Assembly (NCBI GenBank): GCA_017505725.1
Contig: JAFVOR010000096.1
Location: 1-45,075 of the forward strand
Direction: 5' to 3'
Source of the DNA: Alistipes sp.
GTDB taxonomy: Bacteria > Bacteroidota > Bacteroidia > Bacteroidales > Rikenellaceae
DNA length: 45,075 nt
Part shown: positions 12,907 to 35,818 of the stretch, in pieces
Layout of the letters: every line of letters begins with the position of its first letter
Numbering within the stretch: position 1 is the stretch's first letter
The notes under the pieces: model-generated
What the model was told of the DNA's origin: nothing
Databases searched by the model: none
The model's input: the letters and a program-made list of their open reading frames with translations, nothing else
Made by a program: the position numbers and the translations under genes

Positions 12907-13028
12907 AAAATCGTTCCGATTGGCTCTTTTTGCACTGCTCTTCGGATAACGAAATGCTCACATAGGCTTACTATGCTCCGCTTTCGTTCCCTCGCTTAGC
13001 ACAAAAATAGTTCAATCGCCTCCGATTT
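12907..13028 (+). repeat. Interspersed palindromic element, copy A
   Basis: A 122-bp imperfect palindrome beginning AAAATCG and ending CGATTT. Inner parts: TTTTTGCAC paired with GCACAAAAA, the mid stem AACGAAA/TTTCGTT, conserved internal-loop sides TGCTCA and CTCCGC, and the apical stem CATAG/CTATG with a 5-base loop. It lies between the pheT start and the end of the preceding minus-strand operon. The family has seven copies in the window. Confidence 0.85.
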
Positions 13029-13079
13029 CACCCTCTGGGAATTTTGCTATTCGCCAATAATCGGACAAAGATACTAAAA

Positions 13080-13112
13080 TAAACGGAAAACGGAAAACGG
13101 AAAACGGAAAAC
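13080..13112. repeat. Heptamer tandem repeat (AAAACGG)
   Basis: About 4.5 perfect copies of AAAACGG in the gap upstream of pheT, followed by an A/T-rich stretch. It does not encode anything. Other 7-bp-period repeats lie between parE and parC and just after parC. Confidence 0.9.
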
Positions 13113-13140
13113 TTTTAATTCTAATTAAAAAGCAAAAGAA

Positions 13141-13169
13141 AAGAGTTGAAAGCATTGCTCCCAACTCTT
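13141..13169 (-). terminator. Intrinsic terminator of the yitT-to-symporter operon
   Basis: An 8-bp stem AAGAGTTG/CAACTCTT (13141-13148 with 13162-13169), with a loop that can pair internally (AGC/GCT). Read on the minus strand it is followed by TTCTTTTGCTTTTT. It lies 25 bp past the symporter stop codon. Confidence 0.75.
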
Positions 13170-13193
13170 AACTTTGAACTCTCCACTCAGGGA

Positions 13194-14402
13194 TTATTCC
13201 TTCTTACCAAAGATGCGGTCCATTACGATGGCGATGGCACCATCGCCCGAGACATTGCAAGCTGGGCCATAGCCATCGAGTGCCAAGTAGATTGCCATCA
13301 ACAAGGCGGTCATCTCTGCAGAGAAGCCCAAAATCGAGCCGAGCAGACCAACAGATGCCATCAGCACGCCACCCATTACACCCGGCGACGAAACTGCTGC
13401 TATAGCCTGCATCAAGGCGAAGTTTACGAAGAGTGCCAACGGAATATCAACACCAAACATATAGGCAACTGCCACCGATGTAGTGACCAACTTGATGGTC
13501 GAGCCGCACATATGAGTATTCGAGCAGATAGGAATAACAAAGTTTGCAATATCCTCGTTGACGCCACTCTTGAGTGTACACTTTGTGGTGACAGGAATAA
13601 CGGCTGCCGATGAGCAAATTGAGAATCCTGTGAGATAAGCAGGGAGAATGTTGTAGATAAGGCGCAACGGATTCTTGCGTGCGATAAGTCCTGCAATCAA
13701 ATACTGCAAAACGAGATAGAGAATCGAAAGCACAACGCCCGTGCCGATAACCTTCGCACCTGTGCCCAAAACCACATCGATAACGCCCTTTGCGCTCATC
13801 TCGCAAATCATAGTGAAGATGTAGATTGGCAACAAAGGTATGATGGCGCTTTCGATAAACCACTTTACAATTTCGCCAAACTCTTCGAACCAACCCTTAA
13901 CAGAGTCTGCTTTGAGGAAGATGCATCCCAAGCCAATTACGAACGAGAGCACGATGGCGGTCATCATATCGCAAACAGGCGGAATCTTCAACTCGAAGAA
14001 TGGCGCAAACTCCTTCTCCGAAAGAGCCTCTGCCGACAACTCTCCGACATCGAGGATGTGAGGGAAGAAGTTTGTTGCACAAGTGTAAGAGAAGAGCGCA
14101 CCACCTACGGTTGAGATGTAGGATACTGCAATCACAAAGAGGAGCATTTTGCCTGCGCCCTTGCCCAAGTTCGCAACAGCGGGTGTTACGAGTCCGAGCA
14201 CCAGCAAAGGCACCGAGAACTTCAAAAGTTGTGCGAACAAGACATTGAAGGTCTTTAAAACACGAATGAAACCATCGAAACCGCTGTTCATCCAATCGGA
14301 ACTTTCTGGAATGATTTTGCCGACCAGACCGAGTACTGCACCCACCGCAATGGCTATTACCACCTTCGGGAAGAGTCCGAGTTTAATCTTTTTTAACTGC
14401 AT
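13194..14402 (-). CDS. Dicarboxylate/amino acid:cation symporter (DAACS family)
   Basis: A 402-residue inner-membrane transporter of the glutamate/aspartate/dicarboxylate or Ser/Thr symporter family, driven by Na+ or H+. Hydrophobic segments run through the sequence. The family's re-entrant hairpin HP2 and TM7 regions are visible around GFSICSSAAVIPVTTKC and NTHMCGSTIKLVTTSVAVAY, and SSPGVMGGVLMASVGLLG fits the conserved HP2 turn. Substrate is not readable; the Ser-rich SICSSAAVIPVT loop resembles SstT as well as GltP. It is the last gene of the seven-gene minus-strand run, 18 bp after the EamA gene, and is followed by a terminator. Confidence 0.88.
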   Translation of the reverse strand: MQLKKIKLGLFPKVVIAIAVGAVLGLVGKIIPESSDWMNSGFDGFIRVLKTFNVLFAQLLKFSVPLLVLGLVTPAVANLGKGAGKMLLFVIAVSYISTVGGALFSYTCATNFFPHILDVGELSAEALSEKEFAPFFELKIPPVCDMMTAIVLSFVIGLGCIFLKADSVKGWFEEFGEIVKWFIESAIIPLLPIYIFTMICEMSAKGVIDVVLGTGAKVIGTGVVLSILYLVLQYLIAGLIARKNPLRLIYNILPAYLTGFSICSSAAVIPVTTKCTLKSGVNEDIANFVIPICSNTHMCGSTIKLVTTSVAVAYMFGVDIPLALFVNFALMQAIAAVSSPGVMGGVLMASVGLLGSILGFSAEMTALLMAIYLALDGYGPACNVSGDGAIAIVMDRIFGKKE

Positions 14403-14420
14403 AATTTATTGATCTTTAAG

Positions 14421-15317
14421 TTATTTTGAACCAATATAGAGGAATATCATACCTATGAGTATCAGTACGAGGTCGAGAGCCTTGGCCTTGAGGTTGCGCT
14501 CGCCAAACAACACTGCGCCACAAGCGAACGATACCACCACCGACGAGCGTCGAATCATCGCAACCACTGCAATCATCGCTGCGCCGTCACGCAAGGCGTG
14601 GAGGTAGGCCATATCGCCGGCGGTGAGCAAAATCGAGATCATCGGTATCGCCCACGACCAGTGGAACTTCTGCTCGTGTCGTTTGGGTAGCCATAGTGCT
14701 GCCACGATAATGCTCATCAGCAAGAATTGATAGAGTGTGTACCAGCTCTGCACAAATACCGCATTCATCGAGAACATAATATGTCGGTCGTACAATCCGC
14801 AACCCACGCCGATAATGGCGGCTGCGGCTACGCACAATATCCAACGGTTATGGGCAAAGTCTACGCCCTCATTCTTGCTTGAGCGGCTCAAGAGATAGAG
14901 CGAAACAATCGCAAGTATGACACCCACCCACTGATAGCCATTGAGTCGCTCCCCAAATATCAGCATTGCACCACAAAGTGTCAATACGGGGCGAGTGGCG
15001 TTTATTGGACCTACGATGGTCAATGGCAGATGTTTGATGCCGAAGTAGCCAAATATCCACGATGAAAGCACCATCACCGCCTTCAGAAATACTCTTGCGT
15101 GGTCGTGGAGTGTGCCACTTGTGGTCTCGAGTAACGAGCCATCGAGCCACCCTCCGCCAAATGCCGAGTCGAGTAGTGCGGGCAGAAAGATAATCGACGA
15201 GAACAGGGTGTTGAGCCACAGTACGGGCAGCACGGCGTTATCCTTCAGTGAGCGTTTCTTCGCCACATCGTACAAGCCGAGCATCAGAGCCGAGAGAAAT
15301 GCCAACGAAACCCACAT
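14421..15317 (-). CDS. EamA/DMT-superfamily transporter
   Basis: A 298-residue membrane protein with about ten hydrophobic helices in two EamA-like halves: MWVSLAFLSALMLGLYDVAKK opens the first and WILCVAAAAIIGVGCGLYD the second. Such proteins export or import small metabolites across the inner membrane; the substrate is unknown. Conserved features include the turn IVGPINATRPVLTLCGAMLIFGE at the end of half one and a matching VVSFACGAVLFGE in half two. The start codon is 4 bp from the stop of the prenyltransferase gene, so the two are translationally close and co-transcribed. Confidence 0.85.
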   Translation of the reverse strand: MWVSLAFLSALMLGLYDVAKKRSLKDNAVLPVLWLNTLFSSIIFLPALLDSAFGGGWLDGSLLETTSGTLHDHARVFLKAVMVLSSWIFGYFGIKHLPLTIVGPINATRPVLTLCGAMLIFGERLNGYQWVGVILAIVSLYLLSRSSKNEGVDFAHNRWILCVAAAAIIGVGCGLYDRHIMFSMNAVFVQSWYTLYQFLLMSIIVAALWLPKRHEQKFHWSWAIPMISILLTAGDMAYLHALRDGAAMIAVVAMIRRSSVVVSFACGAVLFGERNLKAKALDLVLILIGMIFLYIGSK

Positions 15318-15321
15318 ATGC

Positions 15322-16188
15322 CTATCCGAATATCAAGATGTTAGCAATGACAAATAGAGCCAATGTCAGACTCGCCAATCCATTGAGCGTACCGAATGCG
15401 ATGCCGATAGAGCGCTGCTTTTTAGGCGTGACAAGTATATGCTCTGCCACCAGAATAGCCGAGAAAAGTGCCACGCCGCACCACAAGAGCCATCCCTGCG
15501 GAAGGTACATCGAAAAACCAATCAACGCCGCAATGCTCACGCAGTGCAATGCGATGCTTATGTAGAGCGATGTTGCCACCGAGAATCGTGAAGGTATTGA
15601 GTGTAGACCTCTCTCACGATCGAAGGCGGCATCCTGTAATGCGTAGATAATGTCGAAGCCCCCACACCAGGTGAGCACCAAGAGCGAAAGCAGACAAGGC
15701 GCAAAGGTGAGAGTTCCCGTCACAGCTATGTATGCCCCCGCCGGAGCGATACCGAGCGAAAGACCAAGCACCAGGTGGGCAAGCGAGGTGAATCGTTTGC
15801 AATAGCTGTAGAACATTATCACAGCCAATGCTACGGGTGAAAGCAGTGCGGTAAGCAGATTTATACTACAAGCGGTTGCGATAAAAAGAGTAGCATTTAC
15901 CACAACGAAAATCATTGCATTGCGCGGAGAAATTGCCCCAGAGGGAATCTCTCGGTCTGCAGTGCGAGGGTTATCCTTGTCAATATCGCGGTCTGCCCAG
16001 CGATTGAAGCCCATAGCAACATTGCGGGCAAAGACCATACACAGCACTACCTGCAAGAGTAACCACCACGAAAACTCCGCTTCGGTGCTCCATAGCGCAT
16101 AGACAAATGCCATCAGTGCAAATGGCATAGCAAAGATGGTGTGAGCAAACTTTACAAGTCGAAAATATTTCGATATCTTTTCAAACAT
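15322..16188 (-). CDS. UbiA-family prenyltransferase (MqnP-like)
   Basis: A 288-residue polytopic enzyme that attaches a polyprenyl chain to an aromatic acceptor in quinone synthesis. The first Asp-rich motif is NRWADRDIDKDNPRTADRE, and the second is YALQDAAFDRERGLHSIPSRF. The second motif, with QDxxFDRxxGLHSIP, is closer to the MqnP/UbiA-like enzymes of the futalosine menaquinone route than to MenA, so a menaquinone role is likely. That is inference; no other menaquinone gene lies in the window. It sits 3 bp after the beta-mannosidase gene and 4 bp before the EamA gene. Confidence 0.85.
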   Translation of the reverse strand: MFEKISKYFRLVKFAHTIFAMPFALMAFVYALWSTEAEFSWWLLLQVVLCMVFARNVAMGFNRWADRDIDKDNPRTADREIPSGAISPRNAMIFVVVNATLFIATACSINLLTALLSPVALAVIMFYSYCKRFTSLAHLVLGLSLGIAPAGAYIAVTGTLTFAPCLLSLLVLTWCGGFDIIYALQDAAFDRERGLHSIPSRFSVATSLYISIALHCVSIAALIGFSMYLPQGWLLWCGVALFSAILVAEHILVTPKKQRSIGIAFGTLNGLASLTLALFVIANILIFG

Positions 16189-16191
16189 AGA

Positions 16192-18762
16192 CTATCTGCA
16201 GTTACCGAGATGCTCGATTTTGAGTTGCTTCTTGAATCCCTCAACCGAAAGTGCGGTGTTAACCTTTATCTTGCGCGAAGAGTTTGGCAAGAGGTCGAAA
16301 TAGTTATCCTCGAAGAAGTTGTCGATACCATCCACCGAGAGGTAGACCGCGCGAGCAAAGTTGTCTGCCGAAAGCGTAACCTCTACACCTCCGTCGCACT
16401 TTGTAACTTCTGCCTTAATATTTGTTTTAGGGAAGTTGAGCGCACCTTGCTTTACGAAATAGTTGTGGCTCGAGTACTCCTTGCCATCGACCTTGAGTGT
16501 TGATACAATAACCACATCGTTGGCATCAGCCCCCGCCAAGGCGCTCTCGACAGTCTCATCATACATCACAGTAGAGGTGTTAGCAGGTACGGTTACACCC
16601 TTGTGGAAATGGGTAACGACTTTGCCTGTCAGAGTCATCACCTTGAGGTCGAGCTCGGCTTTTACATTCTGCTGATTGTCCGATACGACAAAGAGACGCA
16701 GACGACCATCACGGCTATATGCCGAGAGGAGATACTTATCGAAGAAGTAGCGGGCGAAGTAGTGCTGTGCCTTCCAACGACCATAGTAGTCGCGGCTTGC
16801 CCACGACGCTACGGGCCAGCAATCGTTGTGTTGCCAGAAGAGCGAACCTTGGCAGAACGGCATATCGCGACGATGGGCCTCGACTGCCAGCTTGATGGCA
16901 TCACCCTGCAATACCTGTCCCATATAGAGGAACTTCTCAAAATCGGTCTGCTCCCAATACTCCTGCTTCATATAGTCGTTAATCTTGCTGTTGGCACTCT
17001 TGCCGCCACGCTGATGCGACATCATAACCTCGGAGTGGATGTTCCAATCCTTGGTGTTCGGAGCATAGAGTTTAACCGAGCCAAACTCGGGGAACGATTG
17101 GAATCCGAACTCCGACATAAAGCGGGTGCGTGTAGTGTTGTAGTTGTCAATCGGATGACGATTGCCCCAAACACCCCAGTAGTGGAAGTCACCCAGGTTC
17201 TTGGCTTTTGACGACTTTACATCCTTGGCTGCCCAAGGCGACATAGGGTGGTAGTAGCGCATAGGATCGTACTTGGCGCATACCTCAGGCAGAAGTTCGT
17301 AGTATTGGAAGTCGAACTGCGCCTTCATTATGTCGTAATACTTCATATCGATACCCTTCTTCTCGAACGAACGCTTACCAGCCACCAATGTGTCGTAGCA
17401 CTCGTTGTTACCACACCACAAGGCGATACAACCATAGTTGCGGAGACGCTTGATGTTGTCGATAGCCTCCTGACGGATATTCTCGATCATTGCACCCTCG
17501 ACAGGGTAGAGCGCACAGCCGAACATAAAGTCCTGCCATACCATAATACCGTTCTTCTCGCACTCCTCATAGAACTTTGCGTTCTCGTATATGCCACCGC
17601 CCCAAACGCGAAGCATATTCATATTTACTGCAACTGCGTCGGCTATAGTCTTTTCGTAAACCTCGTCGGTAACACGAGTGAGGAACGAGTCACAAGGGAT
17701 GTAGTTAGCGCCCTTGGCGAACACACGCTTGCCATTGAGCTCGAAGTAGAATGAACGACCATCCTTGTCCTCCTCGCGAATGACCTTCAACGAGCGAACG
17801 GCAATGTCGTGGTGCTTGCTGTCGACAATGGAGCCATCCACCTCCACCTCGGTACGGAATGCGTAGCGATGAGCCTCGCCCAAGCCATTCGACCACCACA
17901 ACTTTGGCTTTGCGATGCTTATTGGTACAACAGCCTTGTTCTCGCCCTTTGCGAGGGTTGTTGTGCTCTTTGCAAGGGTCTTGCCTGTATTCTCATCGAT
18001 TACGCGGAGAGTGGCGGTTGCCTCCTTCTGCGAGAGAATCTCAAACTCCACATCTATGTCGGCACGCTTGGCAGTGACGCTCTTCTGGTTGTAGAAGATG
18101 TCGTTGATGCGGTGAGCGTTCCAAGCCTCCAGGTATACAGGTCGCCAGATACCAGATGTGACGAGGCGTGGTCCCCAATCCCAGCCGTAGTGGTAGCCCG
18201 CCTTGCGGCAGAATACGCTGATCTTGCGATTGAGCAGACCTCCGTTCTCGGATTGGTCGTTCCAGCGGTAGTATTGGAATGGAAGAGCCTCCCATTTTGG
18301 CATATCGATCTTTACGACCGAATGAAAATAGACCTTGAGCGTGTTCTCCCCCTCACGAAGATGCGGTTTTACATCAATTCGCCAACGGCGGAACATATTG
18401 TCCGCCGAGAGGAGCAGCTTGTCGTTGAGGTAGACATCGGCATAGGTGTCAAGGCCCTCGAATACAAGTTCGATACACTCCTTGTTGAGGATGTCGCTCT
18501 TGGCGGTGAAGGTTGTTTTATAGACCCAATCCTCTTTATCTACCCATTGAACACCACGCTCGTTGAGGCGGAAGAATGGGTCCTCAATAATCTCGTTTGC
18601 CATCAAATCGGTGTGAACAACACCGGGTACGGTGGCACTAAACCAATTAGTTCCTCGATTCTGCTTGAACTGCCATCCCTCGTGAAGCTGTTGCTGCACG
18701 GGAGCGGCGAAGGTCAATGTCGCAAATAGCAGGGTTAAAGTTGAAAGGAGTAATCTCTTCAT
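16192..18762 (-). CDS. Secreted GH2 beta-mannosidase
   Basis: An 856-residue exo-enzyme that removes terminal beta-mannose from manno-oligosaccharides. Signal peptide of about 20 residues (TFAA). A jelly-roll sugar-binding domain is followed by an immunoglobulin-like domain (about 200-320), the TIM barrel (from FYFELNGKRVFAKGANYIPCD, residue 338 on) and C-terminal beta domains. The acid/base is Glu454 in LWCGNNECYD and the nucleophile Glu551 in TRFMSEFGFQSFPE; the GNNE and MSEFG forms, with WGGGIYE, fit beta-mannosidase rather than beta-galactosidase. It is 5 bp after the LRR lipoprotein gene. No SusC/SusD pair is near, so it is not in a classical polysaccharide utilization locus within this window. 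Confidence 0.93.
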   Translation of the reverse strand: MKRLLLSTLTLLFATLTFAAPVQQQLHEGWQFKQNRGTNWFSATVPGVVHTDLMANEIIEDPFFRLNERGVQWVDKEDWVYKTTFTAKSDILNKECIELVFEGLDTYADVYLNDKLLLSADNMFRRWRIDVKPHLREGENTLKVYFHSVVKIDMPKWEALPFQYYRWNDQSENGGLLNRKISVFCRKAGYHYGWDWGPRLVTSGIWRPVYLEAWNAHRINDIFYNQKSVTAKRADIDVEFEILSQKEATATLRVIDENTGKTLAKSTTTLAKGENKAVVPISIAKPKLWWSNGLGEAHRYAFRTEVEVDGSIVDSKHHDIAVRSLKVIREEDKDGRSFYFELNGKRVFAKGANYIPCDSFLTRVTDEVYEKTIADAVAVNMNMLRVWGGGIYENAKFYEECEKNGIMVWQDFMFGCALYPVEGAMIENIRQEAIDNIKRLRNYGCIALWCGNNECYDTLVAGKRSFEKKGIDMKYYDIMKAQFDFQYYELLPEVCAKYDPMRYYHPMSPWAAKDVKSSKAKNLGDFHYWGVWGNRHPIDNYNTTRTRFMSEFGFQSFPEFGSVKLYAPNTKDWNIHSEVMMSHQRGGKSANSKINDYMKQEYWEQTDFEKFLYMGQVLQGDAIKLAVEAHRRDMPFCQGSLFWQHNDCWPVASWASRDYYGRWKAQHYFARYFFDKYLLSAYSRDGRLRLFVVSDNQQNVKAELDLKVMTLTGKVVTHFHKGVTVPANTSTVMYDETVESALAGADANDVVIVSTLKVDGKEYSSHNYFVKQGALNFPKTNIKAEVTKCDGGVEVTLSADNFARAVYLSVDGIDNFFEDNYFDLLPNSSRKIKVNTALSVEGFKKQLKIEHLGNCR

Positions 18763-18767
18763 ATCTC

Positions 18768-19925: not shown

Positions 19926-19926
19926 A

Positions 19927-21273: not shown

Positions 21274-21290
21274 CTTCTGTTTTCGGAAAA

Positions 21291-22357: not shown

Positions 22358-22480
22358 AAAATCGATTCTGATTGACTCTTTTTGCACCTTGCTTGCGTCT
22401 CAAATGCTCACATAGCCCTACTATGCTGCGCTTTTAGCCACTTCGCAACGCACAAAAATAGTCCAATCAGAATCAATTTT
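22358..22480 (+). repeat. Interspersed palindromic element, copy B1
   Basis: A 123-bp palindrome starting AAAATCGATTC and ending GAATCAATTTT. Apical stem CATAG/CTATG with loop CCCTA; conserved internal-loop sides TGCTCA and CTGCGC. First of three tandem copies in the yitT/plsY divergent gap. Confidence 0.85.
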
Positions 22481-22606
22481 AGTTGAGCAGAAAGCACCCT
22501 TCGTTTTTTTGCACCTTGCTTGCGTCTCAAATGCTCACATAGGCCCACTATGCTGCGCTTTTCGCCACTGCGCAACGCACAAAAAAGTCCAATCATAATC
22601 AATTTT
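22481..22606 (+). repeat. Interspersed palindromic element, copy B2
   Basis: A near-repeat of B1, 127 bp downstream of it measured at the GCACC landmark. Apical stem CATAG/CTATG with loop GCCCA. The left outer arm is replaced by TTGAGCAGAAAGCACCCTTC, a spacer that recurs before B3. Confidence 0.82.
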
Positions 22607-22720
22607 AGTTGAGCAGAAAGCACCCTTCGTTTTTGCACCTTGCTTGCGTCTCAAATGCTCACATAGGCCTACTATGCTGCGCTTTTCACCACTTCGCAAC
22701 GCACAAAAATAGTCAATTTT
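22607..22720 (+). repeat. Interspersed palindromic element, copy B3
   Basis: Third tandem copy, 124 bp after B2. Apical loop GCCTA, same conserved internal loop; the right arm is shortened (AGTCAATTTTT). The tract 22721-22770 then carries a degenerate fragment of the left arm (TTTGCCCTTTGCACCTTG) before the plsY promoter. Taken together B1-B3 fill most of the 524-bp gap. Confidence 0.78.
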
Positions 22721-23598: not shown

Positions 23599-25302
23599 AT
23601 GTTAGACGCAAATTTGATTAAAATGTACGAGCAGTCGTTCCGCGAGAATCGCGAAATGTCGGCTGTAACCAACTACTTTACGGGCGAAACCTACTCGTAC
23701 TATGGCTTTGCCAAGGAGATTGCCAAGTTGCATATCCTTTTTGACGAGGCCGGTATTAAGCAAGGAGATAAAATTGCACTCGTGGGACAGAATACGCCAC
23801 GCTGGTGTGCTGTTTATATCGCAACAATCACCTATGGTGCAGTTATTGTACCTATTATGCAGACCTTCACTTCGAACGACATCTCGCATATCGTGAACCA
23901 CTCGGAGAGCCGCTTGTTGTTCCTCACCGACTCCTATTGGGAGGGCTTGGACGAGGAGGCTGTTCCTGAGGTAGAGGCGGTATTCTCGATTACCGACTAC
24001 CACGCACTTTTCGAGCGCAATGGTAATCGCCTCACCAAGTTTGTGAATGCTATGACCGAGAACTATCGTCGTCGCTATCCAAACGGATTTACGGTGGATG
24101 ATATCAAGTATGCAGATGTTCCAAATGATGCTTTGATGGTATTGAGCTACACCTCGGGTACAACAGGTTATTCGAAGGGTGTAATGCTTACGGTCAACAA
24201 CCTCACAGCCAACATCTACTACGCTGTGAATAAGGTGAATAAGACCACCGGCAAGCATTGGTTCCAGAAGGGTCGCCGCACCCTCGCATTCTTGCCTTTG
24301 GCTCACGCATTCGGTTGCGCTTTCGACTTCCTTGCGCCATTGGCTGCCGGAGGTCACATCAACCTCCTCGGCAAGATGCCTACTCCAAAGGTGTTGATTG
24401 AGGCTATGAAGCGAGTTCAGCCAAGCATCATCTGCTCGGTGCCACTCGTGCTTGAGAAGGTCTATCGCAAGCAGATTGCTCCAATGCTCGAAAAGGGACC
24501 TTTGAGCATTGCGATGAAGGTGCCTTTGGTGAACGAGATTGTACGCTCGCAGATCAAGGCAAAGATGCTCGAATCGTTTGGTGGAAACTTGGAGATGTTT
24601 ATCGTCGGCGGCGCTCCTATGAACCGCGAGACAGAGGCGTTCCTCAAGTCAATTCACTTCCCAATCATCGTGGGTTACGGTATGACAGAGTGTGCTCCAC
24701 TCATCTGTGTAACTCCTCAGCCTGAGGAGTACAAGCTCGGATCGTGCGGAAAGTATCTGAAGGAGTTCCTCGATGTAAAGATCGAGTCTGCTGATTCACA
24801 GAATATCCCGGGCGAGATTATGGTGCGTGGCGAGATGGTTATGCAGGGCTACTACAAGAACGAGGCTGACACTGCGGCAGTGCTTGAGGAGGATGGCTGG
24901 ATGCATACCGGCGATATGGGTGTTATGGATGCAGATGGTACCGTATATATTAAGGGTCGCTGCAAGACTATGATTCTGACCGATACAGGACAGAACATCT
25001 ACCCTGAGCAGATCGAGGATAAGCTCAACAATATGCCACTCGTTATGGAGTCGCTCGTGTTGGAGAATGAAGGTAAGCTCTACGGATTGGTAGTGCCTGA
25101 CTTTACTCAGTGCGAGAAGGAGGGTATCTCCCGTGGGCAGTTGGAGGCTATTATGGCCGACAACCTCAAGATGCTCAATCAGCAGGTTGCAGCCTACGAG
25201 CGTTTGGTTTCGATTACTATCCACATCAGCGAGTTCGAAAAGACCCCTAAGCGTTCGATTAAGCGCTATCTCTACGATGTGAAGAGAATGGGTATAAAGT
25301 AG
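23599..25302 (+). CDS. Long-chain acyl-CoA ligase, copy 1
   Basis: A 567-residue ANL-superfamily enzyme that activates fatty acids with ATP and, probably, CoA. The P-loop is in LSYTSGTTGYSKGVM, the adenine-binding motif in VGYGMTECAPLI, the Asp of HTGDMG binds ribose, and the C-terminal catalytic lysine is expected in EKTPKRSIKRYLYD. No signal peptide or obvious membrane segment, so a cytosolic or peripheral-membrane enzyme. It follows plsY by 38 bp and may supply or recycle acyl chains for that enzyme. A paralog lies directly downstream. Exact chain length and acceptor are not readable. Confidence 0.9.
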   Translation: MLDANLIKMYEQSFRENREMSAVTNYFTGETYSYYGFAKEIAKLHILFDEAGIKQGDKIALVGQNTPRWCAVYIATITYGAVIVPIMQTFTSNDISHIVNHSESRLLFLTDSYWEGLDEEAVPEVEAVFSITDYHALFERNGNRLTKFVNAMTENYRRRYPNGFTVDDIKYADVPNDALMVLSYTSGTTGYSKGVMLTVNNLTANIYYAVNKVNKTTGKHWFQKGRRTLAFLPLAHAFGCAFDFLAPLAAGGHINLLGKMPTPKVLIEAMKRVQPSIICSVPLVLEKVYRKQIAPMLEKGPLSIAMKVPLVNEIVRSQIKAKMLESFGGNLEMFIVGGAPMNRETEAFLKSIHFPIIVGYGMTECAPLICVTPQPEEYKLGSCGKYLKEFLDVKIESADSQNIPGEIMVRGEMVMQGYYKNEADTAAVLEEDGWMHTGDMGVMDADGTVYIKGRCKTMILTDTGQNIYPEQIEDKLNNMPLVMESLVLENEGKLYGLVVPDFTQCEKEGISRGQLEAIMADNLKMLNQQVAAYERLVSITIHISEFEKTPKRSIKRYLYDVKRMGIK

Positions 25303-25362: not shown

Positions 25363-27060
25363 ATGTTACAGGAAAATCTGATTAAAATGTATGAGCAGTC
25401 ATTTCGTGAGCATCGCGAGATGAGCGCTGTGACCGATTACTTCTCGGGCGAAAGTTACTCCTATTATGGTTTTGCGAAGGAGATTGCCAAGCTCCATATC
25501 CTCTTCGACGAGGCTGGCGTGAAGCGTGGTGACAAGATTGCTTTGGTCGGCCGCAATACACCGCGCTGGTGTGCTGTCTACATTGCTACTATGACCTATG
25601 GAGCGGTGATTGTGCCTATTATGCAGACATTTACATCGACCGATATCCAGCATATCGTCAACCATTCGGAGAGTCGTCTGTTGTTCCTTACCGACTCCTA
25701 TTGGGAGGGTTTGGACGAGGAGGCTTTGCCCAATATCGATGGCGTATTCTCGCTCACCGATTACCACGTATTGTTCGAGCGTCGTGAGGGTAAACTCACC
25801 AAGTGTGTCGACAATATGACCACAAATTATCGTCGTCGCTATCCACAGGGATTCACCGTGAACGACATTAAATATGCCGATGTGCCTAACGATCAGCTCA
25901 TATTGTTGAACTATACATCGGGTACTACCGGTTACTCGAAGGGCGTTATGCTTACGGTAAACAACCTTACGGCTAATGTCGCATATATCAAGACTTTGAA
26001 GCCCCGCAATGGTGGCTCATTCTACTTTGCAAAGGGCCGTCGTACACTCTCGTTCCTGCCTTTGGCACACGCTTATGGTTGTACCGTCGATTTCCTCACT
26101 CCGCTCGCTGTCGGAGGTCACATCACACTCCTCGGCAAGATGCCTACTCCAAAGGTGCTGGTCGAGGCTATGAAGCACGTTCAGCCAAATGTAATCGCTT
26201 CGGTACCTCTTGTACTCGAGAAGATTTACCGCAAGCAGGTGGCACCACTCCTCGAGAGTGGCTCGCTCAGTGTTGCCATCAAGGTGCCGCTCGTGAACGA
26301 GATTGTTCGTGCCAAGATTAAGCAAAAGTTGCTCGATTCGTTCGGTGGCAATGTCGAGTTGTTTATCATCGGCGGTGCTCCAATCAACAAGGAGACCGAG
26401 GCGTTCCTCAAGTCTATCCACTTCCCTATTATCGTAGGTTATGGTATGACCGAGTGTGCTCCGCTCATCTCGGTTACTATCGATCCTACCGAGTTCAAGA
26501 TTCGCTCGTGTGGAAAGATTCTGCAGGGTATGATGGAGGTGAAAATCGACTCTGCCGATCAGCGTAATATCCCGGGTGAGATTCTTGTCAAGGGTGAGTG
26601 TGTGATGCAGGGTTACTACAAAAACGAGCGTGACACCGCTGCGGCTTTGGATGCTGATGGATGGCTCCATACTGGTGATATGGGAACTGTCGACGAGGAT
26701 GGTACAATCTATATCAAGGGCCGTTGTAAGACTATGATACTCACCGAGACAGGTCAAAATATCTATCCCGAGCAGATCGAGGATAAACTCAATAACCTCC
26801 CGCTTGTTGCAGAGTCGCTTGTGCTTGAGAATAAGGGAAAACTCTATGGCCTTGTGGTGCCTGATTTTGCCCTTTGCGAGAAGGAGCATATAACTCGCGA
26901 GAAACTCGAAGAGATTATGAACGAGAACCTCAAAGCTCTTAACGAGCAGGTAGCAGGCTACGAGCGTCTGGTGTCGCTTATCATCTATCCTAACGAGTTC
27001 GAGAAGACTCCTAAGAAGAGTATTAAGCGTTATTTATACGATATGTCCAAACTCGTATAA
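25363..27060 (+). CDS. Long-chain acyl-CoA ligase, copy 2
   Basis: A 565-residue paralog of the upstream gene, roughly three quarters identical by eye, with all catalytic motifs kept (LNYTSGTTGYSKG, GYGMTECAPLI, HTGDMG, EKTPKKSIKRYLYD). The 60-bp spacer is A/T-rich with no clear promoter, so it is probably co-transcribed. The main differences lie in the segment after TVNNLTAN and around the end of the N-terminal domain, regions that can set acyl specificity. A copy of the interspersed palindrome begins on the base after its stop codon, and an intrinsic terminator follows at 27343. Confidence 0.9.
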   Translation: MLQENLIKMYEQSFREHREMSAVTDYFSGESYSYYGFAKEIAKLHILFDEAGVKRGDKIALVGRNTPRWCAVYIATMTYGAVIVPIMQTFTSTDIQHIVNHSESRLLFLTDSYWEGLDEEALPNIDGVFSLTDYHVLFERREGKLTKCVDNMTTNYRRRYPQGFTVNDIKYADVPNDQLILLNYTSGTTGYSKGVMLTVNNLTANVAYIKTLKPRNGGSFYFAKGRRTLSFLPLAHAYGCTVDFLTPLAVGGHITLLGKMPTPKVLVEAMKHVQPNVIASVPLVLEKIYRKQVAPLLESGSLSVAIKVPLVNEIVRAKIKQKLLDSFGGNVELFIIGGAPINKETEAFLKSIHFPIIVGYGMTECAPLISVTIDPTEFKIRSCGKILQGMMEVKIDSADQRNIPGEILVKGECVMQGYYKNERDTAAALDADGWLHTGDMGTVDEDGTIYIKGRCKTMILTETGQNIYPEQIEDKLNNLPLVAESLVLENKGKLYGLVVPDFALCEKEHITREKLEEIMNENLKALNEQVAGYERLVSLIIYPNEFEKTPKKSIKRYLYDMSKLV

Positions 27061-27184
27061 AAATCGTTCTGACGGGCCTATTTTTGTACGGATCGGCGGA
27101 TAGCGAAATGCTCACATACCTCAAGTATGCTCCGCTTTCGCTACCTTGCTTCGCACAAAAATAGGCCCGTCATTTACGATTTTT
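27061..27184 (+). repeat. Interspersed palindromic element, copy C1
   Basis: A 124-bp palindrome with the best outer pairing of the family: AAATCGT...GACGGGCCTATTTTTG against CAAAAATAGGCCCGTC...ACGATTTT. Mid stem TAGCGAAA/TTTCGCTA; apical stem CATAC/GTATG with loop CTCAA. Begins immediately after the stop codon of the acyl-CoA ligase. Confidence 0.88.
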
Positions 27185-27187
27185 ATT

Positions 27188-27310
27188 AGTTCGTTCTGTC
27201 GTGTCTCCTTTTGCACGAATCGGCGGATAGCAAAATGCTCACGTAGGTTTACTACGCTCCGCTTTCATCGCTTTGCTTCGCACAAAAATAGGCCCGTCAT
27301 TTACGATTTT
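27188..27310 (+). repeat. Interspersed palindromic element, copy C2
   Basis: A second copy in direct tandem. The right arm is nearly identical to that of C1, but the left outer arm has diverged (TCGTTCTGTCGTGTCTCC). The apical stem is CGTAG/CTACG with loop GTTTA, a compensated change from CATAG/CTATG. Confidence 0.82.
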
Positions 27311-27342
27311 TTGGAACGCATTGAAAACTCGCTAATTATTTG

Positions 27343-27373
27343 GGCATTCGACACAAAGTCGGATGCCTTTTTT
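27343..27373 (+). terminator. Intrinsic terminator insulating the two-component operon
   Basis: A 10-bp stem GGCATTCGAC/GTCGGATGCC (one T-G pair) with loop ACAAA, followed by six T. It closes transcription from plsY and the ligases. Its T-run overlaps the TTTG -33 element of the next promoter. Confidence 0.85.
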
Positions 27374-27411: not shown

Positions 27412-27423
27412 ATACTTCGTTTT

Positions 27424-28485: not shown

Positions 28486-29209
28486 TGATGAGCCTCTGGC
28501 ATTGCGACAGATTTCAGGCTATATCTCCAAGATCCCATTCCTTGACCTGAAGTCGACCTTCTGCAGCGCAGTATTGGCGCAGGAGTGGCTCAAGGAGAAT
28601 GAAACAGACTTGATATTTGTAGATATTAATATGCCCGATATGACGGGAGTAGAGTTTGTGCAGACGCTCGACACGCCTGCGATGGTGATATTCACCACCG
28701 CCTACGCCGAGTACGCCATAGAGGGATTCAAACTCTCGGCTATCGACTATCTGCTCAAACCTTTCGGTCTAAACGATCTCACCCGAGCTGCGGAGAAGGC
28801 TCTCTCGCTCTATGAGTTGTTGCAGTTACAGGAGGCGCGACAGAGCGAACAGACTCCGCAGGAGGAGACCATCGAGAGTGGCGATGAGGCAGGAGTACTC
28901 TCGGTACACGCCGACCGTAAGACTCACGTTGTGAAGATGTCGAATATCGTCTATGTCGAGAGCGCTGGTGAGTATGTACGATTGCATCTGTCGGATGGTA
29001 CAAAGCTCGTAACACTATTCCGATTGAAGAATATGGAGAGCTCGTTGCAGTCATCGCAATTTATGCGTGTGCACCGCTCCTATATCATCAATCTGAATCA
29101 TATCTCGGGTTATACGAAAGGCCGAGTGTTCCTCTCCAATGACGACTATGTGCCGATTGGTGAGAACTATAAAGAGCAGTTTATTAATTATATGAATAGT
29201 GTACAATAA
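28460..29209 (+). CDS. LytTR-family response regulator
   Basis: A 249-residue regulator. The receiver domain (residues 3-115) has the acidic pair in IAIDDEP, phosphoacceptor Asp55 in LIFVDINMPDMTG, the conserved Thr in IFTTAYAEYA and the Lys in DYLLKPFG. A Gln/Glu-rich linker (about 118-143) leads to a LytTR DNA-binding domain (145-249), with IVYVESAGEYVRLHL and FMRVHRSYIINLNHI. Starts at 28460 or 28466 are both possible. It overlaps the kinase gene and is 6 bp from the next gene, so it probably controls the downstream exported genes and perhaps its own operon. Confidence 0.94.
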   Translation: MAMRCIAIDDEPLALRQISGYISKIPFLDLKSTFCSAVLAQEWLKENETDLIFVDINMPDMTGVEFVQTLDTPAMVIFTTAYAEYAIEGFKLSAIDYLLKPFGLNDLTRAAEKALSLYELLQLQEARQSEQTPQEETIESGDEAGVLSVHADRKTHVVKMSNIVYVESAGEYVRLHLSDGTKLVTLFRLKNMESSLQSSQFMRVHRSYIINLNHISGYTKGRVFLSNDDYVPIGENYKEQFINYMNSVQ

Positions 29210-29215
29210 AAGAGT

Positions 29216-30799: not shown

Positions 30800-30806
30800 T
30801 ACGATT

Positions 30807-32876
30807 ATGAAGAAGATTTCGATATTGCTATTATCTATTATGGCGGCGTTTGCTGCCTATGCAGGTGAGGTTGGCTTGAAAGTTACGCCTAATCTCTCGC
30901 CTGATGCAACAAAATATGCGATGGCTAAGCAGGCGTCTACGCAGATTACTGCTCTCGAGACCACTGTAAAGGGTCGTTTGTGGGCCTCTGTGTTGTGTAA
31001 TGGCGATGGCGCCGAAGGCTTTCTCTCGCTCGTATATAGCGACTCGCAGGGCAAGAATTGGAGCGATGCCGTTGTAGTATTGGATGCTTGTGCCGATAAA
31101 TTGGCAGTGCGCAATGGAATATTGTGGCTATCTCCGAAGGGTGAATTGTGGTTGTTCTATTCCGTATTCGACGGTTACTATGATGGTCGTGGCTCGTTGT
31201 GGGCTATGATTTGTAAGAATCCCGAGGCCGCACAACCTCTTTGGGAGGCTCCGCACTATCTCGGAGTCGGCGTTGCTACGGGTCGTCCTATGGCCGATAA
31301 GCAGGGTGTGTGGTACCTACCTTCGGCATTGTGGGGACGTGATGTGATGTACTACGATAAGGCTCCATTTATTGCGAATCGTTGGGATACTCCTCGCTTT
31401 GCATCGCCATACGCAGGTAGCTATTTGGAACTCGACTCAAAACGCGGTGCAGGCGTATATATCTCGACCGACGAGGGTAAGACCTGGAGTGAGAATCTCG
31501 GTGCAGTAAAGTGTCCTAATGAGGTGATTAAAGCGCGTTATAACAATCCTCAGCTCTTCTGCTATGATGACGGTAAGGTGGGTATGGTAGTGCGTGCTTC
31601 GGGTACGGCGTGGTCGTATGTTGCAACAACATCGAATGGCAAGGAGTGGAGTGCCGTCGAGCGATTTGTTTCGGCTCCCGACCAAAACTTTGCCGTACAT
31701 CGTCTTGCGGATGGCAAGTTGCTGATGGTGCGAAATGGACGTTTCGACCATCATCTCCATTGGTTGCCTGAGGGATTGTTCGCTTATCTCTCGGAGGATT
31801 GTGGTCAGAGTTGGTATGGTGGTTTGCGCCTTGCTTCGGATGTTGCTACGATTAATCCTGTAGTGGCAGAGGCAAAGGATGGCTCAATCTATATCGCTAT
31901 GCATAGCGAGCCTGAGGCTAAATGCGAGAACTCGCTTGTTATAACTTCGGTGGCAGAGATTGATGCTGCGAATGCCGACCCTATGAACTCGCCTTCGAAT
32001 AAGAGGGTGGTGCTTACGGTAGGCAATGCTGGTGAGGGTGCTGCCGCCTTGACAAAGGTGCTGACAACACCAAAGACCGATTGGGCGTCGGAGCCTTTCC
32101 GTCTTGCAACGTATAATATCCAATATCCTATTATGGGTTGGCCAGAGAAACGCTTGGAGCCACTCATCGCACTGCTCAAAGAGTATGACTTCGATATCTT
32201 CGGAGCACAGGAGCCTTATCTCCACCAAATTGAGGATATGATGCGTCACATTGGCGACGAGTATGCTTGGGTCGGCACGAATGTCACGGGCGATAATAGC
32301 GATAGAACACACCATTTTAACCCTATATTCTATCGTAAGTCGCGCTTTGAGGTGCTCGATTTCGATACCGTATGGCTCACTGATGAGGCGGGTGTACCAG
32401 GCTATGGAGCACGCTCGTGTCGTCTGTTTGTGTGGGCGAAGTTCCTCGACAAAAAGAGTAATAAGGTGTTCTATCACTTCAACGGACACTACGACCATCG
32501 TGGTATTGAGGCGAGAGTTGTAGCGTCGTATATCGTGCTCGATATGGTGCGTAAGGTGGCAAAGGGTATGCCTGCATTCGTTACGGCAGACTACAATTCG
32601 GACGAGAAATCACGTCCTTACAAGGTTTTGCAGGAGTCGCCTTTCTTGGAGGATACAATGACCGATTCGCCTGTAACAGTAAATCGCGAGTATCAGTCGA
32701 TTAGCGGCTATAAGCCTGTTACGACTCGAGCTGTGAACGGTATGCACATCGATCACGTATTCTACACTCCAAATTCGATTAAACTCAGCCATTGGGAGCT
32801 TATCGTTAAGGACTATAATGGCTATTGGGGCTCTGATCACCACCCAATATTTGTGGATTGTGTGATTGCAAATTAA
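30807..32876 (+). CDS. Secreted sialidase-like beta-propeller fused to EEP-family nuclease/phosphatase
   Basis: A 689-residue exported protein (signal peptide to about residue 19, AYA). Residues 30-400 form a sialidase/BNR-like propeller with Asp-box motifs SDSQGKNW (78-85), STDEGKTW (220-227), a degenerate TSNGKEW, and SEDCGQSW (329-336). Residues 429-689 are an endonuclease/exonuclease/phosphatase domain with Asn437 (TYNIQ), Glu469 (GAQEP), His561 (NGHYDH), Asp595 and Asn597 (TADYNSD), Asp649 and His650 (HIDHVFY) and Asp677-His678 (GSDHHP): a complete catalytic set. The propeller may act as a glycosidase or only as a binding domain; I cannot identify the arginine triad by eye. Possible substrates are nucleic acid, sugar phosphates or phospholipids. 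Confidence 0.82.
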   Translation: MKKISILLLSIMAAFAAYAGEVGLKVTPNLSPDATKYAMAKQASTQITALETTVKGRLWASVLCNGDGAEGFLSLVYSDSQGKNWSDAVVVLDACADKLAVRNGILWLSPKGELWLFYSVFDGYYDGRGSLWAMICKNPEAAQPLWEAPHYLGVGVATGRPMADKQGVWYLPSALWGRDVMYYDKAPFIANRWDTPRFASPYAGSYLELDSKRGAGVYISTDEGKTWSENLGAVKCPNEVIKARYNNPQLFCYDDGKVGMVVRASGTAWSYVATTSNGKEWSAVERFVSAPDQNFAVHRLADGKLLMVRNGRFDHHLHWLPEGLFAYLSEDCGQSWYGGLRLASDVATINPVVAEAKDGSIYIAMHSEPEAKCENSLVITSVAEIDAANADPMNSPSNKRVVLTVGNAGEGAAALTKVLTTPKTDWASEPFRLATYNIQYPIMGWPEKRLEPLIALLKEYDFDIFGAQEPYLHQIEDMMRHIGDEYAWVGTNVTGDNSDRTHHFNPIFYRKSRFEVLDFDTVWLTDEAGVPGYGARSCRLFVWAKFLDKKSNKVFYHFNGHYDHRGIEARVVASYIVLDMVRKVAKGMPAFVTADYNSDEKSRPYKVLQESPFLEDTMTDSPVTVNREYQSISGYKPVTTRAVNGMHIDHVFYTPNSIKLSHWELIVKDYNGYWGSDHHPIFVDCVIAN

Positions 32877-32887
32877 TTGTATCGTAG

Positions 32888-34174
32888 ATGAAGAAGGGGC
32901 TTTTAGCATTATCGCCAATAGTGGTGCTTTTGGTCGCATATTTGTCGATGTCGTTGGCGTCGGGCGACTTCTATCGCATCTCTATTTCGGTGGCATTTGT
33001 AATTGCGGCAATATATGCTGTGGCTGTGTTGCGAGGCATTAGCAATTCGTTGCAGGAGCGTGTATCCGTATTCTCGGAGGGTGCTTCGGACAAGAATATC
33101 CTATATATGATTTGGATATTCATCTTGGCGGGCATCTTTGCAACCTCGGCAAAGGCGATGGGTGCGGTGGATGCTACGGTCTACTTTACGATGCGTTTCA
33201 TTCCTGCCGAGTTTATGCTGGCGGGTATCTTTATAGCTTCGTGCTTTATCTCGCTCTCGATAGGTACGTCGGTGGGTACAATCGTGGCGCTGACACCCGT
33301 TGCTACGGGGTTGGCTACGCAGTTAGGAGTGGATATCGCACAGATGGTTGCTGTGGTTGTGGGAGGTGCTTTTTTTGGCGATAACCTCTCGTTTATCTCC
33401 GATACCACAATTGCCGCCACAATGAGTCAGGGCTGCAGTATGAAGGATAAGTTCCGCACCAATTTTGTGCTTGTGTTGCCTGCTGCATTACTCTCGTTGG
33501 GACTCTATATCTTTCTCGGCATCTCCGATGGTGGCGAGATGATAACCGAGGCGAGTGCCGCCGAGTGGTATAAGGCGATACCATATCTGTTGGTGCTTGT
33601 CTGTGCCATCGTTGGTGTCGATGTGCTTATTGTATTGGTGCTTGGCATTATTGCAACCGCAGTTATAGGCCTGTCGTGTGGCTCGTTGTCGCTTATTACT
33701 CTCTGCGAGGAGGCGGGCAATGGTGTGCTCTCGATGGGCGAACTCATCATAATCACCCTCTTGGCGGGTGGTCTGATGAATATGGTGAAGCAGAGTGGCG
33801 GTTTTGAGTATATTACTCAGGCCATTACTCGCCGTGTCTCGGGTCGTAGAGGTGCCGAGAGTGCTATTGCAGGTCTGACCATATTGGCGGATGTCTGCAC
33901 TGCGAACAATACTATCGCAATTATTACTATGGGACCTATTGCCCGCGACTTGAGCCTTAAGTATGGTATCCCTGCACGCAAAAGTGCGAGTCTGATGGAT
34001 ACAGCGTCGTGCTTCGCTCAGGGCGTTCTGCCATACGGTGCGCAACTGCTTATGGCGGCAGGTCTGGCCGAGATATCACCCATTGCAATTATTACACATC
34101 TCTATTACCCTCTGGCGATTGGTGTGATTGTTTTACTCTCGATTATATTCCAAATCCCACAAATTAAACAATAG
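32888..34174 (+). CDS. NhaC-family Na+/H+ antiporter
   Basis: A 428-residue inner-membrane transporter with about eleven hydrophobic helices. The family motif GDNLSFISDTTIAAT is clear, as are SIGTSVGTIVALTPVATG and the C-terminal block AEISPIAIITHLYYPLAIG. NhaC-type proteins exchange Na+ for H+ or carry organic anions with Na+ (malate/lactate, arginine/ornithine); the substrate is open. ADVCTANNTIAIITMGPIAR is a second conserved block. It lies 11 bp after the propeller-EEP gene, and its stop codon is directly followed by the ATG of the nuclease gene. In a nuclease operon it might import a released product or counter-ion, but that is inference. Confidence 0.88.
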   Translation: MKKGLLALSPIVVLLVAYLSMSLASGDFYRISISVAFVIAAIYAVAVLRGISNSLQERVSVFSEGASDKNILYMIWIFILAGIFATSAKAMGAVDATVYFTMRFIPAEFMLAGIFIASCFISLSIGTSVGTIVALTPVATGLATQLGVDIAQMVAVVVGGAFFGDNLSFISDTTIAATMSQGCSMKDKFRTNFVLVLPAALLSLGLYIFLGISDGGEMITEASAAEWYKAIPYLLVLVCAIVGVDVLIVLVLGIIATAVIGLSCGSLSLITLCEEAGNGVLSMGELIIITLLAGGLMNMVKQSGGFEYITQAITRRVSGRRGAESAIAGLTILADVCTANNTIAIITMGPIARDLSLKYGIPARKSASLMDTASCFAQGVLPYGAQLLMAAGLAEISPIAIITHLYYPLAIGVIVLLSIIFQIPQIKQ

Positions 34175-35695
34175 ATGAGAAAGTCTCTTTTACTATCCTT
34201 AATCTTAGCCCTCTTTTGTGCTTGCGAGCCTTTTGCTTGGCCACCCGTAACACCCGATGATGAGGAAGGTGTCGTAACACCAACCCCGACACCAAATCCC
34301 AATCCTGACCCAACGCCTGAGCCAGCGGAGGTTTCTGCAACATTGACCTACTCGGAGTGCAAGAGCATCTTGGTGAAGTCGTATGGCAATCCAAAGAGCT
34401 ATAACAATTCCTATGGCACTTGGACAATCTGCGTCTACGACAACTCGAATGGTATGCAGATCAACAAGGGTAAGGTGGCATATATAGGTACACCGACCTT
34501 CGAGGGCGATATCAAGAGGATTACTATCGACTTTGCCGAAAGTTATTCGGATGATATCCTTCTTTGTTCGGACAAAGGTACGACATCGGTTGTTGGTCAG
34601 TTCGAGTCGTTCAGTTGCAACGGAAGAGCGCAAGAGTATACCTTGACAAGCAAGGGCGTAAAGAAATTCTTTATTCGCTCGACTGCGTGTGCGCGTATCA
34701 CAAAGATTACTATCGTAGCCGGCGGCGGAGGAGGTAATAGCGGTGGCGGAACAACGCCCGACCCAACACCAGAGCCTGACCCAACTCCTGATCCCGATCC
34801 AACTCCCGATCCAACACCTGATCCGACCCCCGATCCGACTCCGGGTGATGGCACAAATCCAAGCACCTACGCCTACGATTGGGCGGAGTTGCCTGTGATG
34901 GTCGATACAAATAAGGATGGTCGTTTGGATAGCAACACTTCACTCTACTACGCACATCACCTCTGTGCTGGTGGCGAGAAGAATGCGCAGCGCAATGGCT
35001 CGGCGCGCAACTATACAGTCTGCTACTCGGCCGACCATCACTGCCCACTTTGGGTTGCTGCACCTCGCCATCGTTCGTACGAGAGTGGTGCATCGAGAAC
35101 TGACGCCTACGGCAAAGACCCGAAAATTCCGAGCGATATTCAGTATAGTAGTAAAAGTACGGGTGGCGGTTGCAACAAGGGGCATATGCTTGGCTCGGCA
35201 GAGCGCTTGAGCTCGACTGCGACCAACAAGCAGGTATTCTACTACACCAATATCGCACCGCAGTATAGCGATACCTTCAATTTAGGAGGTGGAGCGTGGA
35301 ATAACCTCGAAGACCACGTTGATGGCCTCGTTTGCAGCGATACCTTATATGTAATTATCGGTTGTTATTTCGAATACTTCTCGAAGAATGGGGCTTCGGC
35401 TTCGCCAAAGACCATATCATTTGGTGGTCGTAAAGATGTGTCGTGCCCTACGATGTTCTACTATGCGCTCCTTCGTACCAAGAAGGGAAATACGGGTAAG
35501 CGAGTGCAGGATTGCTCGGCAAGCGAGTTGCAGTGTGCAGCCTTCACTATCTGCCACAAGATGGCCAAAGGTCATAAACCTCAGGCTGCTGATATGATGT
35601 CGATTTCCGATTTGGAGAAACTGACGGGTGTCACCTACTTCCCGAATGTGAAGAATGCCCCGAAGTCTACCTACAACGCCAGCGATTGGCTGTAA
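34175..35695 (+). CDS. NUC1-type DNA/RNA non-specific endonuclease lipoprotein
   Basis: A 506-residue lipoprotein (lipobox with Cys17, LFCAC). A Pro/Asp spacer (25-50) is followed by a small beta domain (about 55-182), a second low-complexity linker of TPDP repeats (185-229), and the nuclease domain (235-506). The nuclease shows the His-containing motif NKGHMLGSAERL (catalytic His337; the usual form is DRGH), then YYTNIAPQYSDTFNLGGGAW with metal-ligand Asn369, and NNLED. The Asp-Arg of DRGH is replaced by Asn-Lys, which occurs in some bacterial members, so activity is likely but not certain. The ATG directly follows the nhaC stop codon. A copy of the interspersed palindrome starts right after the stop. 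Confidence 0.87.
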   Translation: MRKSLLLSLILALFCACEPFAWPPVTPDDEEGVVTPTPTPNPNPDPTPEPAEVSATLTYSECKSILVKSYGNPKSYNNSYGTWTICVYDNSNGMQINKGKVAYIGTPTFEGDIKRITIDFAESYSDDILLCSDKGTTSVVGQFESFSCNGRAQEYTLTSKGVKKFFIRSTACARITKITIVAGGGGGNSGGGTTPDPTPEPDPTPDPDPTPDPTPDPTPDPTPGDGTNPSTYAYDWAELPVMVDTNKDGRLDSNTSLYYAHHLCAGGEKNAQRNGSARNYTVCYSADHHCPLWVAAPRHRSYESGASRTDAYGKDPKIPSDIQYSSKSTGGGCNKGHMLGSAERLSSTATNKQVFYYTNIAPQYSDTFNLGGGAWNNLEDHVDGLVCSDTLYVIIGCYFEYFSKNGASASPKTISFGGRKDVSCPTMFYYALLRTKKGNTGKRVQDCSASELQCAAFTICHKMAKGHKPQAADMMSISDLEKLTGVTYFPNVKNAPKSTYNASDWL

Positions 35696-35818
35696 AAAAT
35701 CGTTCTGATTGGTAAATTTTGCACCAAACTTCAGATAGCGAGCTCCTCACATAGGTCTACTATGCTGCGGGCTCGCTACTTTGTTTCGCACAAAATTCCC
35801 TCAATCATTTACGATTTT
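35696..35818 (+). repeat. Interspersed palindromic element, copy D
   Basis: A 123-bp palindrome beginning immediately after the nuclease stop codon and ending ACGATTTT. Mid stem TAGCGAGC/GCTCGCTA, compensated relative to TAGCGAAA/TTTCGCTA in C1. Apical stem CATAG/CTATG with loop GTCTA. Confidence 0.88.

Follow-up and report, generated by a model that had tools for sequence, protein, structure and literature searches.

A mobile palindrome family of Alistipes with relatives in several bacterial phyla and a mismatch signature that may reflect recognition as a folded DNA strand

Introduction

A 45,075-nucleotide stretch of DNA from Alistipes sp. (contig JAFVOR010000096.1 of assembly GCA_017505725.1; the whole stretch is called the window below) carries seven intergenic palindromes of about 120 bp, which raises the question of what such repeats are and how they are maintained. 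The preliminary description of the window saw two possibilities, an RNA under selection and a mobile hairpin. Here we report that these palindromes belong to the bacterial mobile palindromes, which are already known as a class, and that they carry an unexpected strand signature. We are highly confident that the element is mobile DNA, as indicated by its copy number, its patchy presence among related genomes, an orthologous junction that is empty in relatives, and its occurrence in several phyla. In the explanation that we favor, whose chances we regard as about even, the element is a non-autonomous mobile palindrome of approximately 115-130 bp, belongs to a superfamily that spans phyla and probably includes the ERIC repeats, and is recognized as a folded DNA strand.

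Results

Conserved apex and covariation of the arms

The anatomy of the element is described here on the strand that carries TCA and CTSC, as folded in the preliminary description. We found 142 candidates in Alistipes, of which three with unrelated stems were set aside, and 105 of the remaining 139 were kept in an alignment (A2) after redundancy filtering; a further alignment (A3) comprises 39 of 41 listed copies, two with truncated 3' arms being omitted. The internal loop, for which fixed sides TGCTCA and CTSCGC had been proposed, is better given as a bulged T, a 2-bp segment, and TCA opposite CTSC, followed by the 5-bp apical stem. The bulged T, which follows the mid stem, is invariant in 137 of 137 elements, and the 2-bp segment is GC/GC or CC/GG in 94 and 39 of the 142 candidates, respectively. 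The apical stem belongs to the CATAC type in 76 candidates, CATAG in 55+1, TTTAC in six, and CGTAG in one, and the apical loop has 5 nt in 115 of 142. The outer arms vary by subfamily, many copies having, as judged by eye, GCGTT at the 5' and GCCTT(G) at the 3' side; conservation is highest at the apex and lowest at the termini.

The paired stem changes listed in the preliminary description are present in the window sequences, and covariation is also found in larger sets of 105 and 66 copies. RNAalifold applied to the 105 Alistipes copies gave 14 pairs, 11 of them with two-sided changes. In a 66-copy multi-phylum alignment (A4), which had been fitted to the structure and in which copies from other phyla stand alongside those of the window and of Alistipes-like loci, 92.0% of cells were paired vs. 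66.9% after shuffling (0 of 500 shuffles as high), and the covariation score was 0.570 vs. 0.160 (0 of 500 shuffles), with slid structures reaching at most 0.119. The outer arms pair in a copy-specific manner, with -15.7 kcal/mol for own arms vs. -8.5 for swapped arms, and in 58 of 138 copies the own partner outscores each of the 30 other partners sampled. Likewise, in a rhizobial-type subfamily represented by 16 copies, pairing of the outermost 10 bases is 86% vs. 62% with swapped arms (at most 75% in 2000 shuffles). When long flanks were included, folding became too noisy for statistics on the ends.

Copy-specific pairing even at the fast-changing termini is what would be seen if no recognition were involved and template switching homogenized the inverted repeats (quasipalindrome correction), a process that would by itself make the arms covary. 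As an account of the family this is very improbable: the asymmetric bulged T and the TCA/CTSC loop persist, although arm-to-arm correction would tend to erase both, and the multiplication and strand bias of the element are left unexplained.

One copy (L315) from another Bacteroidota family, f41, has the usual inner part, but its outer arms, paired with each other, are unlike those of sister copies; this difference hints at arm turnover or at insertion into a palindrome. Several copies are cut off or deleted within the hairpin (L272:469, L274, L276, and L282), L282 being a 5' arm alone before an open reading frame (ORF).

Distribution across genomes and phyla

The draft genome from which the window derives (2.36 Mb, 85% complete) contains 72 exact matches to the core of the element, whereas the reversed control gave none. 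Within the genus, the core occurs in 27 of 37 genomes, the count per genome ranging from 0 to 72, and it is absent from all 24 genomes of other families in the order. Scans for the core returned 51 stretches in viral contigs and at least 114 in species genomes, 80 of the latter listed with names, from Mesorhizobium, Agrobacterium, Phyllobacterium, Sphingomonads, Halomonadaceae, enterics, and Rickettsia, as well as from Desulfobacterota-like and Nitrospirota-like metagenome-assembled genomes (MAGs), Listeria, and Paenibacillus, with Firmicutes among the phyla reached. Since the same core is present in rhizobia and Rickettsia, some of the rhizobial RIME/Bru-RS and Rickettsia palindromic element (RPE) families may be members.

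Model R1 was applied to 52 loci picked for carrying the core, out of 156 such viral and genome loci whose titles name neither Alistipes nor Rikenellaceae; 49 of the 52 gave matches at E<=1, with 38 matches below 0.001. Its best matches outside Bacteroidota were in two MAGs, one of Ruminiclostridium (1e-12) and one of Desulfocapsa (1.2e-12); it was weak in two Nitrospirota-like MAGs (0.005 and 0.02), and Rickettsia scores were uneven (E from 3e-6 to 0.12). Model R2 at E<=1e-4 matched 31 of 198 Bacteroidota genomes, namely the source genome, 28 genomes of family f41, and two single ones. A relative of about 130 bp was detected in 5375 of 5426 Escherichia coli genomes, at a median of five places each; one example (L252:3001-3131) lies between pyrH and frr, with no annotated feature beneath it in the records listed. 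We consider it likely that all these repeats form one superfamily spanning phyla.

The family had not been recognized in the preliminary description. Within the window, none of the Rfam families scores as high as its gathering threshold, and among 16 cross-phylum loci three Rfam matches were obtained, none at the element. No title uniting these repeat families was noticed among the literature matches listed. BoxC, considered as the E. coli counterpart, was dropped on its description as an intrastrand triplex motif (PMC4666352).

Empty junctions and direct arrays

The copies at 27058-27309, at the junction between an acyl-CoA ligase gene and a histidine kinase gene, are missing in the nearest relative found (G005, in which the probe matches at 79% identity), and the inspected stretches from six further species likewise show no core at this junction. 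Genes flanking the examined copies are ordinary and unrelated to each other. Copy pairs within 400 nt are always direct (30 pairs, 28 of them spaced by 117-153 nt), with none in opposite orientation. A TA dinucleotide is common at the 5' end of Alistipes copies and less so at the 3' end, as seen by eye.

A mismatch bias that suggests folding of the complementary strand

A strand whose fold matters tolerates G-U pairs but not A-C mismatches. On the TCA/CTSC strand, arm mismatches in Alistipes copies comprise 120 A-C vs. 42 G-U, and those in other genomes 167 vs. 62; named non-Alistipes genomes alone give 116 vs. 41 (p 1.7e-9). The A-C excess on this strand means G-T on its complement. The bias persisted when each sequence context was counted once (88:39 in Alistipes and 129:55 in others) and also where both neighboring genes are antisense (13:2 in Alistipes, 34:16 in others, and 23:11 in named genomes only), and it is therefore not a by-product of transcription direction. 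By taxonomy, 17 of 19 informative groups agree (25 are named in all, six being tied or empty). ERIC copies, oriented by the shared apex, have a ratio of 20:6 (p 0.009), while control hairpins of the Alistipes loci are without bias, both terminator-like (5:8) and other (26:34). We give an even chance to a working form in which folding is required of the complementary strand, single-stranded DNA being the simplest version.

The choice between a selected RNA and a mobile hairpin is shifted: the mobile hairpin gains from the number of cores, their variable count per genome, the empty junction, and the presence in several phyla, and the RNA reading is weakened, as the mismatches favor folding of the strand opposite to that folded originally, even beside antisense neighbors. 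The tolerance of G-U on the complementary strand would also fit a structured RNA made from that strand, either antisense or as an independent small RNA, with the bias arising from RNA folding. This seems distinctly improbable given the lack of an Rfam match, a copy number that ranges from 0 to 72 among relatives, sites beside unrelated genes, and a promoter consensus scan, the only promoter check, that stayed near the shuffle level.

Position behind stop codons in Alistipes

Among 103 intergenic Alistipes copies, a sense stop codon lies at the 5' end in 39, whereas the mirror case was observed in none (p 3.6e-12). These counts, like those for neighbors, were obtained with simple ORF calls instead of a gene finder, and copies close to a locus end were skipped. 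The pattern is the same in the source genome (18:0) and other species (21:0), in class A copies (15:0) and others (24:0), and with (23:0) or without (16:0) a T-tract; with a wider search distance, it becomes 52:7. Of the four sites in the window, two obey the rule (27058 and 35696). A palindrome inserted in either orientation would spare the stop codon, and the orientation rule in Alistipes thus points to strand-specific insertion or retention.

A sense position behind stops, together with covariation, is what a 3' untranslated region RNA element would show, such as an mRNA stabilizer, processing site, or terminator, having spread as a repeat and being retained because its sense transcript folds; in Yersinia, ERIC RNA is described as altering mRNA levels (PMC10969869). 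We judge this improbable. The prevailing mismatch type is disruptive in the sense RNA but tolerable on the other strand, regardless of the direction of the neighboring gene, the stop pattern does not depend on a T-tract, copies 5 and 6 of the window leave intact a terminator-like hairpin on the plus strand (27342-27368), and the junction is empty in relatives.

Search for a mobilizing enzyme

The RAYT/Y1 transposase that had been suggested as a candidate was not detected: PF01797 is found in 0 of 41 genus genomes, while 5 of 14 control genomes were positive. DDE_3 (PF13358) had no match in the source genome, the one genome searched, which is 85% complete. No partner insertion sequence (IS) sharing the ends of the element was noticed in this genome, in which there are 54 class A ends, 25 of them, in 20 regions, being read for 150 nt; one of these 25 has an exact core, 19 have an altered apex, four are truncated, and one is unrelated. 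None was noticed in seven f41 genomes either. The terminal 14-mer gave four matches in the single-contig genome G237, all four at elements, and 12 matches in drafts, seven of which were checked.

These searches bear on the reading of the element as a conventional miniature inverted-repeat transposable element (MITE), that is, an internally deleted IS of the IS630/Tc1 or another TA-targeting DDE type, whose transposase reads the terminal inverted repeats and for which the hairpin is a by-product. ERIC relatives are classed as MITEs with TA duplication and IS630-like ends (PMC6267812; PMC2229807), some rhizobial copies have TA-R...Y-TA ends, and ERIC copies have TA at both ends. We nevertheless find a conventional MITE rather unlikely, as it is the termini that are least and the apex that is most conserved, PF13358 is missing from the 85%-complete source genome, the terminal 14-mer in G237 occurs at elements in every case, and a double-strand mechanism predicts neither the strand bias of mismatches nor the 39:0 orientation.

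Comparison with ERIC, REP, and attC

ERIC copies were gathered by pattern and by BLAST. In 18 ERIC loci, 7 of 8 R1 matches and 10 of 10 R2 matches at E<=10 fall on the ERIC apex in register; the best single E values are 0.76 and 0.14, respectively, and the loci hold few distinct sequences. A recognizable ERIC consensus was not found in the elements, the models cross-matching only at E 0.14-5, and in an order-wide search for ERIC 1 of 59 genomes gave a match, a genome already in the set. ERIC repeats, also known as IRU (MITEEc1, and MITEPlu5 in Photorhabdus), resemble the element in being imperfect palindromes of about 125-127 bp with an apex that reads TCA, 5-bp stem, loop, stem, and CTC, in forming direct arrays, including tandem triplets with a 126-bp period (L322, three copies; also L324 and L326) comparable to the triplet in the window, and in the A-C-biased mismatch strand. 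They differ in the CTTAC/GTAAG stem, the 4-nt loop, the lack of the T-bulge and 2-bp segment, and the lack of a stop rule. On the strength of the model matches on the apex, the layout, the arrays, and the strand bias, ERIC is somewhat more probably than not a distant relative of common origin. We know of no settled account of how ERIC-like repeats move. The ERIC relative MITEPlu5 has 552 copies, 47 of them polymorphic between strains, a TA target, and IS630-like ends, the likeness to IS630 ends being the clue given there to its movement (PMC6267812).

Known systems show that folded single strands with bulges can be enzyme substrates, as with TnpA-REP and the integron integrase (PMC8266576). 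REP/BIME sequences mobilized by TnpA-REP (RAYT) of the HUH family share with the element bulged hairpins recognized as one folded single strand (PMC8266576), and REP termini of the GTAG type often supply a TAG stop to flanking ORFs (PMC3733652). REPs are unlike it in their length of 20-40 bp and GTAG or CGTC foot, the Alistipes-type element having about 120 bp and no inverted pairs. Membership in REP/RAYT was rejected: a GTAG/CGTC foot occurs in 16 of 137 elements vs. 9.5% of random windows, which is near chance, and length and the absence of a Y1 gene from 41 genus genomes likewise disagree.

The integron attC site sits directly after an ORF. It is a structured hairpin of variable sequence with extrahelical bases, of which the folded bottom strand is used (PMC8266576), and is thus similar to the element, which differs in being a dispersed repeat without a cassette array. 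Membership in attC was rejected, RYYYAAC and GTTRRRY boxes occurring together in 0 of 137 elements.

The seven copies in the window

The apical pattern has seven matches in the window vs. a mean of 0.03 in shuffled sequences, and a covariance model based on 39 copies from Alistipes, excluding these seven but with many from the same genome, recovers exactly the seven, with E values from 1.7e-21 to 6.4e-16 and the next match at E 1.4 (Table 1). The window repeats are thus a genuine family with real pairing. All copies were confirmed within a few bases of the positions first given (12907 to 35696), and the apical module is common to all. The full fold that had been attributed to every copy is complete in only four (12908, 22360, 27058, and 35696), the outer stem having been overstated. 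The tandem followers, taken as whole stretches, fold like shuffled sequences (z -0.27 from 22483, -0.26 from 22607, and -1.38 from 27187); in each, the 5' outer arm is lost or eroded.

Table 1. Palindromic copies in the window, with fold z-scores and covariance model E values
Copy	Coordinates	Strand	Description	Fold z	Model E
1	12908..13028	+	Full hairpin, single	-4.73	1.7e-21
2	22360..22476	+	Full hairpin, opens a direct tandem array of three	-6.10	1.5e-20
3	22505..22586	+	Tandem follower, apex and mid stem only, 5' outer arm lost		2.9e-19
4	22629..22710	+	Tandem follower, apex and mid stem only, 5' outer arm lost		1.6e-18
5	27058..27185	+	Full hairpin	-11.89	
6	27189..27309	+	Tandem follower of copy 5, outer arms eroded		6.4e-16
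7	35696..35818	+	Full hairpin	-7.14	

Copy 1 lies between genes for the phenylalanyl-tRNA synthetase beta chain and a dicarboxylate symporter, both on the opposite strand, and the array of copies 2-4 is located inside a divergent intergenic region between a YitT-like and a PlsY-like gene. The outer stem of copy 5 begins at the TAA stop (27058-27060) of an acyl-CoA ligase ORF (25363-27060), and copy 7 starts immediately 3' of the stop codon (35693-35695) of ORF 34175-35695.

Two further repeats were observed in the window. The adjacent acyl-CoA ligase-like ORFs at 23599-25302 and 25363-27060 represent a tandem duplication with 75-78% identical blocks and 1764-bp spacing, and a proline-rich coding repeat at 34281-34836 lies in an ORF that encodes a DNA/RNA non-specific endonuclease domain (PF01223).

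Discussion

In the folded-strand reading that we favor, an enzyme would recognize the conserved apex of a single DNA strand, complementary to the TCA/CTSC strand, with the bulge, the internal loop, and the 5-bp stem serving as its address. Insertion would occur next to TA in a strand-specific manner, and TAA and TAG stops might be tolerated because the first base of the element, a purine, would restore the stop. Templated repair inside the hairpin may also help to keep the arms complementary. Compared with such a mobile hairpin, we regard both a plain IS630 MITE and a role as RNA as less likely.

Several results weigh against this reading. The searches for Y1, DDE_3, and a partner IS yielded no candidate for the enzyme that moves the element. 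In the 66-copy alignment, two of five measures were weak, pairs with two-sided changes being equaled in 12 of 500 shuffles and further pair types in 126 of 500. The mismatch bias (A-C:G-U) is reversed in Halomonadaceae (4:6) and Enterobacteriaceae (1:2), is not significant in viral contigs (67:52) or in eight f41 copies (6:8), and is balanced at the 14 innermost pairs (15:15, counted from the 105-copy table); moreover, the copies are related, which makes the p-values too small. As to the stop rule, all other genome loci give 35:19, but these include Alistipes-like ones: the non-named loci (L217-L250), several of which look like Alistipes, contribute 15:5, and on recheck the named non-Alistipes loci gave 20:13 (p 0.3, not significant), so that the rule was dropped beyond Alistipes. 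Viral loci show 10:10 and f41 loci 4:1, and ERIC has no clear rule, with four sense stops within 66 nt vs. three mirrored (n=25). Finally, stops at the sites comprise 38 TAA, 11 TAG, and three TGA, vs. 77, 62, and 11 in the background; TGA is not avoided relative to the background, which lends no support to a TA-specific target.

A wider proposal, which we offer as speculation and think unlikely to hold as a whole, is that the palindromes of ERIC, Alistipes, rhizobia, Halomonadaceae, and Rickettsia are one old superfamily that moves as a folded bottom strand via an unrecognized recombinase, with some hosts docking it strand-specifically behind stop codons; tagging gene ends in this way would be a type of event that could give rise to integron cassettes, which consist of a gene and an attC site. 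The shared apex, the indication of a strand, and the docking site in one genus lead to direct predictions on strand, bases, and junctions. If the proposal is true, folded single-stranded DNA would be mobile in more systems than REPs, IS200/IS605, and integrons, and one could test how cassettes made of a gene and a hairpin may come about.

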